Source of the DNA: Bacteroidota bacterium | GTDB lineage: Bacteria > Bacteroidota > Bacteroidia > Bacteroidales > F082 | Length of the DNA stretch: 37,057 bases | Reading direction: 5' to 3' | Assembly (NCBI GenBank): GCA_024280235.1 | Contig: JAJRQN010000052.1 | Coordinates: 1 to 37,057 of the forward strand | In this document: piece after piece, positions 9,139-12,452 of the stretch | How positions within the stretch are numbered: position 1 is the first letter of the stretch | Layout of the letters: every line of letters starts with the position of its first letter | Notes under the pieces: generated by a model | What the model was told of the DNA's origin: nothing | Database searches by the model: none | The model's input: the letters and a program-made list of their open reading frames with translations, nothing else | Program-made: the position numbers and the translations under genes

Positions 9139-9726
9139 TTAATTTAACCCCGGATTGACGGGGAATTTATCCCACAACCTGTAATCGCTGCCCAGTTTGC
9201 GGATTAATTTTTTCCACAGCTGGTCCGATTTGGTCTTTAAAATGAGTTCTGCCGTGGCTGTGGTTATGACCCATGAATTTTTTTTCAGCTCTTCTTCCAT
9301 CTGATGAGCGCCCCACCCTGAATAGCCGAGGAAAAAGCGGCTGTTTTCAGGTGTAAGCTTATGCAGTCGTGCCATCTCAAGGACATCTTCCATATTACCA
9401 CCCCAGAAAAGTCCTTTTGCAACCTCAATGGAATCAGTAATTTGCTCCCCAAGGGTATGGATAAAAAACAGCCGGTTGGGTTCTACCGGGCCGCCGAGAT
9501 ATAAAGGAACTTTTAAGTCCTGAAAATCTTCCGCTACTTCACTAAGCATTTTGCTTACCGGTTTGTTCAGGATAAGTCCGAAAGAACCTTCCGCATTGTG
9601 CTCGGCAAGTAAGATAACTGAACGACCAAAATAATAATCGCCCATAAATGGCTCGGAAAGCAACAACCGCCCTTTTGCGGGCTTCAGATTATTGGGTTTT
9701 ATTTGTATGAGCCGGTCGATTTTCAT
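9139..9726 (-). CDS. YqgE/AlgH family protein
   Basis: This 195-residue protein fits the YqgE/AlgH family (DUF179): an N-terminal KGRLLLSEPFMGDYYFGRSVILL strand region, GSFGLILNKPV, LYLGGPVEPNRLFFIHT, and the late FLGYSGWGAHQMEEEL motif. The family is widespread and structurally known, but its biochemical role is unsettled. The start is supported by GGAG just before the ATG, one of the few Shine-Dalgarno-like sites in the window. It is divergent from murL and convergent with def. Confidence 0.92.
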   Translation of the reverse strand: MKIDRLIQIKPNNLKPAKGRLLLSEPFMGDYYFGRSVILLAEHNAEGSFGLILNKPVSKMLSEVAEDFQDLKVPLYLGGPVEPNRLFFIHTLGEQITDSIEVAKGLFWGGNMEDVLEMARLHKLTPENSRFFLGYSGWGAHQMEEELKKNSWVITTATAELILKTKSDQLWKKLIRKLGSDYRLWDKFPVNPGLN

Positions 9727-9787: not shown

Positions 9788-11173
9788 TTGGATAAGACTA
9801 ACAACCATAACAAGTTTCTGAAGCTGCGAAAAGCCTATCCTTATTTTGTGTTTCAAAGTTATTCAATAATTCGGACAAAAACAAGTTTGCAGATAAAATT
9901 TCTTTTCGACCTCGCCGGACAACATCGGTTTCAACCGGAAATGGAAATCCCTTTACGTGATTTTTATCCCTTGGAAAATTTACCTGACAGCGAGCTGGAA
10001 AACCTTGTTTTTCAGATAGGTATGGTTGAATTGGTGAGCTACTGGAAAGCTGCCTGTTCACCCAAAGTGATGGTGCGTGCCGGCCATTTGGATGCAGAGC
10101 AAATAGCCTGGTGGAAAAAACTCTATTTTCACGGACTCGGCGAGTTTTTTTATCTCAACGGTATTGCAACGGACAGGACAACGTTCATGGAGATTACCGC
10201 TGAAGGCGAGGCAAAAGAGATGTCGGATCTTTCGCTTGATATGGAAAAAGTACTGGTTCCCATTGGTGGTGGAAAAGATTCGGCGGTAAGTCTGGAACTG
10301 CTTAAAAACAGTGGCCTTAATGTAAAACCGTTTTTACTTAATCCCCGTGCAGCGAGTGTGCGAACCATCGAAATAGCAGGATTCCCGATAGAAAATGCAG
10401 CCGTGGTCAACCGAAAACTTGATCCTGAATTATTCAAATTAAATGCAGCCGGATTTTTAAATGGCCATACGCCGTTTTCGGCGCTGCTGGCGTTTGTGTC
10501 GGCTCTGACAGCGCTTTTGTCAGGTACCGGAAATATTGCTCTTTCCAACGAAAGCAGTGCCAACCAAAGTACGGTACCAGGCTCTGAAATAAACCATCAG
10601 TACTCCAAATCATTTGAATTTGAACAGGATTTTAACTGGTATCTGAAACATTATGTGCATCCTGACTTGCGGTATTTTAGTTTCTTACGCCCGCTGAATG
10701 AATTGCAAATTGCCTTGCTGTTTTCTCATCTTCCACAGCACCATTTCAGTTTCCGCAGTTGTAATGTGGGTAGTAAAACCGACAGCTGGTGCGGACATTG
10801 TCCGAAATGTTTGTTTACTTATGTCATGTTGTCGCCATTCTTGCCACAGGAAAAACTGGAGAGGATTTTTGGTGCAAACTTATTAAAAGACAGAACCCTG
10901 TTGCCGGTTATGGACGAACTAAACGGGAAAGCGAAAGTGAAGCCTTTTGAATGTGTGGGCACGCCTGAAGAGGTGAATACTGCCCTTTGGAGAGCGGTGG
11001 AAAACAATTATGTTGACAAACAATTTCCTTTGGTCAAGATGGCCGGCAGTTTGGAAAATGTACGCGAAAAGGAGTCTTTTCAAAGATTGCTTGACAGTGT
11101 GAACCGTAATCATCTTCTACCGGAAAAATTCTTTCGTATGATAAAAAAAGCCTTGGCCGATGCAACTTTTTGA
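9788..11173 (+). CDS. murL: Probable UDP-MurNAc-L-Ala-L-Glu epimerase (MurL)
   Basis: This protein of about 461 residues resembles MurL, which uses ATP to epimerise the terminal L-Glu of UDP-MurNAc-L-Ala-L-Glu to D-Glu during peptidoglycan precursor synthesis. Near the middle is a PP-loop-like ATP site, VPIGGGKDSAVSLELL, and later a four-cysteine cluster, SCNVGS...WCGHCPKC, which may bind zinc. The next gene, murD2, overlaps by 14 nt, as expected for enzymes acting in sequence. The open frame extends upstream to 9692, but that part overlaps the divergent yqgE start and looks unlike protein. The TTG at 9788 (reads as MDKTNNHNK) is the most reasonable start, though not proven. Identity rests on the ATP motif, length and neighbour rather than on an alignment. 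Confidence 0.8.
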   Translation: MDKTNNHNKFLKLRKAYPYFVFQSYSIIRTKTSLQIKFLFDLAGQHRFQPEMEIPLRDFYPLENLPDSELENLVFQIGMVELVSYWKAACSPKVMVRAGHLDAEQIAWWKKLYFHGLGEFFYLNGIATDRTTFMEITAEGEAKEMSDLSLDMEKVLVPIGGGKDSAVSLELLKNSGLNVKPFLLNPRAASVRTIEIAGFPIENAAVVNRKLDPELFKLNAAGFLNGHTPFSALLAFVSALTALLSGTGNIALSNESSANQSTVPGSEINHQYSKSFEFEQDFNWYLKHYVHPDLRYFSFLRPLNELQIALLFSHLPQHHFSFRSCNVGSKTDSWCGHCPKCLFTYVMLSPFLPQEKLERIFGANLLKDRTLLPVMDELNGKAKVKPFECVGTPEEVNTALWRAVENNYVDKQFPLVKMAGSLENVREKESFQRLLDSVNRNHLLPEKFFRMIKKALADATF

Positions 11174-12452
11174 AAAAATATTTTCGGAAGAGAAATCCGT
11201 ATTGATTCTTGGCTTTGGCAAAGAGGGGCGTTCTACTTACAAATTTTTGACGAAAAATTTTCCCGGTTGCAAAACAGGTATTGCAGACCAAAATACTGCC
11301 ATTGCAGACGAAAAAATCAATGCACCGCTTCACCTGGGAAAAGGCTATCTGAAAGCCATAAATGATTACGACCTCGTTATCAAGTCGCCGGGTATTAAGC
11401 TTAATGGTATTCGGGAAAACGCAAAAGAGAAAATCACTTCCCAAACCGATCTTTTTCTGCGTACTTTTAGCCGGCAAACCATTGGCGTTACCGGAACCAA
11501 AGGGAAAAGCACCACGGCAAGCCTGATTTATCATCTGCTGGAAAATACGGGACACAAAGCCATTTTAATGGGGAATATCGGTTTGCCGGCTTTTGATTTT
11601 CTAAGGCAAATCCGCCGCAATGATTGGATTGTTTACGAATTGTCGGCACACCAGTTGGAGTTTGTACACGCCAGTCCCCATGTGGCGGTTTTGCTTAATC
11701 TTTTTCCCGAACATTTAGATTATTTCAAAGATTTTGAAAGCTATAAAGGGGCCAAGCTTAATATTTTCAGGTTTCAACAAACCGGCGACATTGCCTTTTG
11801 TGGTAAAACATCTGCGAAAATTGTCGAAAATTGTGAAACTATTTTCGATATGGAAAAGAATTTTGGGAACAGCGTTCATCCACAGCAGCTTTTGCAACTT
11901 TCGGGACTGAAAGGACAACATAATTTGGACAATATCCTGCTGGCCTTTCGTGTTATGCAAAGTTTGGGAACGCCGGTATCTCAATTGCCGGCAGCTTTAA
12001 CGGGTTTTCGTGCTTTACCTCATCGGTTGGAATACGTGGGAAGCTTTGGCAGGATTGACTTTTTCAACGACAGTATTTCCACGGTTCCCCAATCTACTAT
12101 GGCCGCCGTAAATAGCATTCCACAAACAGATGCGCTTATTCTCGGAGGTTTCGATCGCGGACTTGATTATGAAGAGCTTGTCCGGTTTTTGTTGGAAACC
12201 GGTATCAAACATTTTTTCTTTTTGGGAAAAGCAGGGGAACGGATGAGGGCGCTGTTTTCTTCGCATCAGAATAACAAACAATTACATCCGGTTGAAGATT
12301 TGAACACTGTTTTTTACGAGTTAAAGAAGCTGTCTGATGTTAAATGCTGCCTTTTGTCGCCTGCCGCAGCGAGCTACGACCAGTTTCATAATTTCGAGCA
12401 CAGGGGAGATATTTTTAAGAAGTTGGCAACAGGATATAGAAAAAAACAATAA
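11160..12452 (+). CDS. murD2: UDP-MurNAc-L-alanine--glutamate ligase, MurD2-like
   Basis: This 430-residue cytoplasmic Mur ligase adds glutamate to UDP-MurNAc-L-Ala. The P-loop is GVTGTKGKSTTASL, and the C-terminal LLSPAAASYDQFHNFEHRGD matches the MurD glutamate-site region. The usual MurD signature NDSKATN is replaced by NDSISTVP, a variant I associate with the L-Glu-adding MurD2 branch. The upstream overlapping murL would then convert L-Glu to D-Glu, bypassing glutamate racemase. If that pairing were wrong, this would be an ordinary MurD using D-Glu. The start lies within the end of murL, which suggests translational coupling. No terminator is evident before the convergent gene at 12566. 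Confidence 0.85.
   Translation: MQLFEKIFSEEKSVLILGFGKEGRSTYKFLTKNFPGCKTGIADQNTAIADEKINAPLHLGKGYLKAINDYDLVIKSPGIKLNGIRENAKEKITSQTDLFLRTFSRQTIGVTGTKGKSTTASLIYHLLENTGHKAILMGNIGLPAFDFLRQIRRNDWIVYELSAHQLEFVHASPHVAVLLNLFPEHLDYFKDFESYKGAKLNIFRFQQTGDIAFCGKTSAKIVENCETIFDMEKNFGNSVHPQQLLQLSGLKGQHNLDNILLAFRVMQSLGTPVSQLPAALTGFRALPHRLEYVGSFGRIDFFNDSISTVPQSTMAAVNSIPQTDALILGGFDRGLDYEELVRFLLETGIKHFFFLGKAGERMRALFSSHQNNKQLHPVEDLNTVFYELKKLSDVKCCLLSPAAASYDQFHNFEHRGDIFKKLATGYRKKQ

Follow-up and report, generated by a model that had tools for sequence, protein, structure and literature searches.

A Candidate MurD2-MurL Route to Peptidoglycan D-Glutamate in a Bacteroidales Genome Retaining a Canonical murD

The window analyzed here is a stretch of 37,057 nucleotides (contig JAJRQN010000052.1 of the GenBank assembly GCA_024280235.1) from a Bacteroidota bacterium of the order Bacteroidales, family F082. 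Its forward strand carries two adjacent genes, one for a MurL-type ATP-dependent epimerase of 461 residues with a TTG start codon (positions 9788..11173) and one for a MurD2-type ligase of 430 residues (11160..12452), which overlap by 14 nucleotides (11160..11173). The finder of open reading frames (ORFs) opens the first frame at another TTG, at position 9692; the TTG at 9788 matches the start of the closest relatives. In Xanthomonas sacchari, an annotated murL lies upstream of a murD and overlaps it by 20 nucleotides. A first-pass annotation, made from the sequence alone, had reported the two ORFs with their overlap, the motifs VPIGGGKDSAV, CGHCPKC, and NDSISTVP, and an arrangement like that of Xanthomonas. 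The coordinates and the gene order, with MurL upstream of the overlapping ligase, agree with our analysis, and all three motifs are found in the translations. The existence of the pair as a MurL relative and a MurD-type ligase is confirmed.

The first protein matches the NCBIfam MurL model NF041275 over residues 77-405 (E 1.2e-78, 264.7 bits), and the second exceeds the cut-off of the MurD model TIGR01087 (E 8.7e-94, 315 bits); with such E-values, the two matches are not due to chance. Species genomes were scanned for relatives of the window MurL, and of the 283 obtained, the best 80, comprising Bacteroidota-type and Clostridia-type records, were kept. A MurD-like ORF lies directly downstream of MurL, or is fused to it, in 77 of these best 80 loci, the remaining three being L054, L056, and L069, of which L069 ends at a contig edge. 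L054 and L056 are the loci of two metagenome-assembled genomes. MurL and MurD form one continuous frame in three of the 80 loci (L024, L040, and L082), and MurL frames of 880-1005 residues are present in 12 of the 60 genomes sampled from the family (G001, G009, G012, G017, G023, G026, G030, G036, G039, G043, G049, and G053). The genomes G131, G155, and G219 likewise have MurL fused in frame to MurD, or at least a MurL frame of sufficient length for such a fusion.

The reactions of MurD2 and MurL are known from Xanthomonas, Micromonospora, and Salinispora (PMC8788868). The double substitution E197D/R358K turned the MurD2 of Xanthomonas oryzae into a D-glutamate (D-Glu) ligase, and K319T let the MurD of Escherichia coli accept L-glutamate (L-Glu) (PMC8788868). 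In our alignment, the window ligase has Glu184 (11709..11711) in the column of E. coli Asp182 and X. oryzae Glu197 and Arg333 (12156..12158) in the column of E. coli Lys348 and X. oryzae Arg358, the two stereo-determinants defined by mutagenesis (PMC8788868). Within the stretch NDSIST (residues 303-308; 12066..12083), Ile306 occupies the column of E. coli Lys319. The X. sacchari MurD2 has the same E/R/I set in the columns of E. coli D182/K348/K319, whereas the MurD encoded in the division and cell wall (dcw) cluster of the window genome reads D/K/K. Among the 77 partner ligases, Arg and Ile are found in 77 of 77 and the first position is Glu in 71 and Asp in six. Compared with the canonical MurD of MurI-based systems, the window ligase shares the Mur ligase fold, the P-loop, and the position of the carbamylated lysine, but differs by Glu/Arg/Ile in place of Asp/Lys/Lys, by its location outside the dcw cluster, and by the lack of a MurI over the cut-off in its genome. 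In a tree of 50 rows, which includes 26 of the 77 partner ligases, 28 MurD2-type ligases (including that of Xanthomonas) are split from 22 canonical MurDs with 100/100 support. This tree and the residues rule out a placement of the ligase among canonical D-Glu MurDs. The alignment with the Xanthomonas proteins, proposed in the first-pass annotation, shows the L-Glu residue set in the ligase and an identity of 31% between the window MurL and the annotated X. sacchari MurL (alignment of 30 MurLs). The MurD2 identity suggested there is thus borne out by the tree, the Glu and Arg determinants, the gene order and overlap, and the lack of a MurI over the cut-off, and the assignment of a MurD2-type ligase with the published L-Glu determinants is well supported by sequence comparison.

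No glutamate racemase (MurI) over the cut-off was found in the window genome, which is 95.65% complete in 275 contigs, the best match to TIGR00067 having 58 bits where the cut-off is 146.65. In the family sample, MurL is present in 59 of the 60 genomes, including 53 of the 53 of good quality, and MurI over the cut-off in none, with weaker matches in 23. For the order, we sampled 198 genomes, each at least 90% complete, and counted MurL at over 500 bits and MurI at over its cut-off, leaving weak MurL matches (44 and 21 bits) uncounted. MurL occurs in 68 of these genomes, MurI in 121, both in none, and neither in nine (Fisher p 1.3e-43, uncorrected for relatedness). MurI was likewise absent at E <= 1e-20 from the genomes of 50 out of the 80 MurL loci, 30 of which are Clostridia-type and whose completeness is not given. 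MurD directly follows MurL in 60 of the 68 MurL-containing genomes of the order.

For the MurL protein, Pfam gave no significant domain at E 0.001 and two weak rows at E up to 10, neither of them QueC, and a structure look-up with the single sequence returned only weak PP-loop matches (E 0.2). We modeled the structure with AlphaFold2 on an alignment of 69 sequences, consisting of the window protein and 68 of the 80 MurL loci, without Xanthomonas, with 11 loci unlisted, and with L037 dropped for a stop within the range. The model has a predicted local distance difference test score of 92.4 and a predicted template modeling score of 0.91. Its top matches in Foldseek are QueC (E 6.7e-4) and QatC (E 7.4e-4), and VIA-align superimposes it on QatC with a Z-score of 18.1 over 317 residues (MurL 16-419), on QueC with 13.5, and on Cap9 with 12.3; the next unrelated family after these QueC-type folds, argininosuccinate synthase, follows at 9.2. 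The PP-loop GGGKDS (residues 160-165; 10265..10282), the predicted ATP site, is invariant in all 69 rows, and so are Cys325, Cys335, Cys338, and Cys341, arranged as C-x9-C-x2-C-x2-C (10760..10810) and proposed as a zinc site. These four cysteines are also invariant in the 30 rows that include Xanthomonas, and C389 is likewise invariant in both alignments. The first-pass annotation had taken CGHCPKC for a four-cysteine cluster and a possible metal site. The motif itself contains only three cysteines (C335, C338, and C341), the fourth being C325 in the preceding SCN, and the metal site is supported by the predicted QueC/QatC-type fold together with the cysteine motif.

In QueC, the motif C(x)8CxxCxxC serves as the zinc ligand and SGGxDS as the ATP-binding motif (PMC13329287); QatC holds zinc with four cysteines (C334/C354/C357/C360), and QueC uses ATP for carboxylate activation (PMC13279940). 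MurL resembles the QueC/QatC/Cap9 family (PF06508) in its predicted fold, its PP-loop, and its four-cysteine motif, but has GGGKDS in place of SGGxDS and C-x9-C in place of C-x8-C, a difference of one residue in spacing. Unlike QueC, MurL has an extra N-terminal domain, which can be aligned with that of QatC, and no Pfam QueC match was reported for it; its substrate, presumably UDP (uridine diphosphate)-muramyl dipeptide, would also set it apart from the QueC family. The most likely identity of MurL is that of a PP-loop enzyme of QueC/QatC type that carries zinc. We infer that its cysteines hold the zinc, and any identity given to the base residue would be equally presumptive. The discoverers of MurL described it as having no known conserved domains and proposed adenylation of the alpha-carboxylate from the release of AMP (PMC8788868, PMC5808125). 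A QueC-type fold would fit their proposal and would point to the likely ATP and zinc sites of the enzyme.

Because of the protein families, the L-Glu residues, the tree, the mutual exclusion with MurI, the gene order and overlap, the fusions, and the predicted fold, we read the two genes as a MurD2-MurL route to D-Glu in peptidoglycan, with a probability of about 0.9 and with the activities deduced from sequence and analogy. MurD2 would attach L-Glu to the cell-wall precursor, and MurL would then flip the attached L-Glu to D-Glu, in place of glutamate racemase. ATP activation of a carboxylate would be the ancestral skill of a QueC/QatC-type MurL. By analogy, the two proteins presumably carry out the reactions known from Xanthomonas, Micromonospora, and Salinispora. 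The X. oryzae pair XOO_1320/XOO_1319 is alike in its upstream and overlapping MurL, the E and R determinants, the MurL family match, and the lack of a MurI over the cut-off. The pair in the window differs from it in belonging to another phylum, in the canonical full-length MurD kept beside it, and in the MurL-MurD fusions of some relatives.

Several observations weigh against this reading. The MurL score lies far under the equivalog cut-off of 700 bits of NF041275, a model named for Xanthomonadales. In the columns of E. coli A414/L416, the window ligase has A/Y, whereas Xanthomonas has P/F, although these positions are not decisive according to a review (PMC8788868), and the Xanthomonas ligase forms a long branch in the 50-row tree. 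MurD does not adjoin MurL in eight of the 68 MurL-containing order genomes; six of these have a MurD2-scale copy on another contig, and for G107 and G111, the search at E 1e-45 gave no such copy adjoining MurL and no full copy at any other site. The genome also encodes a class IV aminotransferase with an ambiguous specificity. Moreover, the pair does not include the only ligase of the genome, in which an intact dcw murD is under purifying selection. This murD lies between mraY and ftsW, is canonical and full-length, and has retained its catalytic residues along with the D/K/K set of D-Glu-type ligases, all 16 checked positions being canonical apart from variation shared with MurI-containing relatives. 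Compared with three copies from the same genus, the ratio of nonsynonymous to synonymous substitution rates (dN/dS) is 0.05-0.08 over the first 267 codons and 0.03-0.05 over the rest, at a dS of 1.5-2.8, which is near saturation. A D-Glu-type ligase therefore persists in a genome without a clear source of D-Glu. The first-pass annotation had raised the question of whether the genome lacks both murI and a canonical murD: no MurI over the cut-off was found, but the canonical dcw murD is present, and the combination named there as counter-evidence, murI together with a second murD, is represented by the second murD only. Across the family sample, a full canonical murD (at least 370 bits) is found in 52 of the 60 genomes, and a MurD2-type copy at E <= 1e-60 also in 52 of 60, a threshold that probably conceals some MurD2 copies, given the long MurL frames of G009 and G036.

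Such a persistent canonical MurD, with its low dN/dS, would also be expected if the pair were active but accessory and most D-Glu entered through the dcw MurD, fed by salvage, an unrecognized racemase, or a D-amino-acid transaminase. We consider this unlikely. Of the two Aminotran_4 proteins in the genome, one is IlvE, and the other, of 275 residues, remains under every NCBIfam cut-off, scoring 90-95 bits with models of D-amino-acid transaminases and about 100 bits with those of IlvE. A MurI-like protein of about 500 residues with both catalytic-type cysteines (CNTAT and GCTHYP) is encoded elsewhere in the genome (contig C29, L009:988-2517). However, it scores under the family cut-off and has, as judged by eye, a lipoprotein-like start, which would place it outside the cytoplasm. 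It is possibly an exported amino-acid racemase, and similar frames of about 500 residues occur in three of four relatives of the same genus. PF01177 and TIGR00067 gave no other protein, and a hidden cytoplasmic racemase was therefore rejected. An accessory role also sits poorly with the order genomes, in which MurI never accompanies MurL and 27 of the 68 MurL-containing genomes have lost the ATPase half of the dcw murD, which cannot be the main ligase there; in addition, the selection test on the dcw murD is weakened by the near-saturated dS.

In a second alternative, which we regard as very improbable, the ligase would simply be a MurD paralogue working with D-Glu, and its upstream neighbor would be an enzyme of QueC/QatC type that serves elsewhere, for example in nucleobase chemistry or in defense against phages. 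QatC and QueC are indeed the closest solved folds, and the ligase does score over the canonical MurD model. Yet even with E-values of up to 10 allowed, PADLOC gave no matching model and Pfam reported no match to QueC; the L-Glu residues, the tree, the exclusion with MurI, and the fusions with the ligase likewise speak against this alternative. A reading as a defense system was discarded on the PADLOC result.

We surveyed the dcw murD in the 68 MurL-containing genomes of the order, with 12 of the 121 MurI-containing genomes as controls. All 12 controls have one full murD copy, whereas a full canonical murD is present in 36 of the 68 and the C-terminal part only in 27; the remaining genomes are either cut by contig ends (G155 and G105) or without assignment (G075, G129, and G175). 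Four more of these half-MurDs come from the family genomes G004, G041, and G051 and from G071. The last one (locus L139) belongs to the nine of 198 genomes with neither MurL nor MurI over the threshold. All 31 half-MurDs are located between mraY and ftsW (L100-L111, L120-L129, and L131-L139). They are about 182 residues long and, as judged by eye in the alignment, start from an ATG that coincides with Met268 of the full-length protein or lies a few residues away from it, often with an MTLEELA-like sequence. In several loci, this ATG and the mraY stop share 4 nucleotides, and in about nine loci the half-MurD overlaps the estimated mraY stop. A crystal study assigned residues 300-437 of E. coli MurD to the C-terminal domain (PMC4816537), so the half-MurD retains, besides this domain, some 40 residues of the central one but lacks the P-loop.

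Half and full copies occur within single genera (g21, with G064 and G171 half and G253 full; g60, with G103 half and G199 full). A single ancestral truncation was rejected by the approximately unbiased test (p 0.011), in which 25 halves were compared with 47 full-length rows after seven long rows out of the 79 (E. coli and six halves) had been dropped. The tree of all rows needs eight label changes, three of them forced by starred branches. The half-MurD thus arose more than once. Five of ten pairs of half-MurDs gave no dN/dS because synonymous sites were saturated; the two best pairs gave 0.06 (dS 0.24) and 0.22 (dS 1.1), and three others 0.08, 0.12, and 0.19 with a dS above 2. The half-MurD is under purifying selection in the pairs with computable dN/dS, and decay is not favored by these values.

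Met is found at position 268 in 34 of 35 full-length MurDs from MurL-containing genomes and in 10 of 12 from MurI-containing ones, E. coli having Leu; its conservation is hence not special to the MurL-containing genomes. The excess of A upstream of this position is 0.18 in the MurL-containing genomes (0.15 outside the family of the window) versus 0.03 in the MurI-containing ones (Mann-Whitney p 0.0003 and 0.016, uncorrected for relatedness), and position 268 ranks 17th of 424 by this measure, residues 43-46 scoring as high. An internal start at Met268 in the full-length murD is only suggested by these figures. As a tentative proposal, which we would sooner doubt than endorse, the murD of the order might encode both the ligase and a separate C-terminal protein starting from an internal ATG (codon 268 here). 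With MurD2-MurL in place, the ligase would become dispensable, and one lineage after another would lose the first 267 codons but retain the second protein between mraY and ftsW on account of a separate function, possibly scaffolding or sensing within the division or precursor machinery. The half-MurD shows that a fragment of an essential enzyme can outlast its catalytic use. We found no mention of the half-MurD protein in the papers searched.

The MurD2/MurL pathway has been listed in Gamma- and Alphaproteobacteria and rare actinobacteria (PMC8788868), and a 2018 review mentions orthologues of low similarity in a fungus, cyanobacteria, and an amoeba (PMC5808125). In the open-licence PubMed Central (PMC) literature, no paper was found that reports the pathway from Lachnospiraceae or Bacteroidales or that connects MurL to QueC or QatC. 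The alternative route has been described as confined to a fairly small number of genera and as offering a target for narrow-spectrum drugs (PMC8788868). If our reading is true for about one-third of the order sample (68/198) and for many Lachnospiraceae-type loci, the pathway would be a mainstream peptidoglycan route, and the drug argument would change because such drugs would also affect commensal groups. Through the link with QueC and QatC, MurL would gain a predicted fold and a probable zinc site, and its evolutionary origin would become apparent.

Two further observations concern MurL-like sequences. In two genomes of one genus (g8), the MurL matches contain one in-frame TAG each (G008:C19:953-2311 and G035:C50:21986-23341). 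A MurL-like protein is also encoded, with no ligase beside it, on the mobilizable plasmid pPaSha1 of Pseudonocardia alni (L184:3929-5329), where it may have another role.
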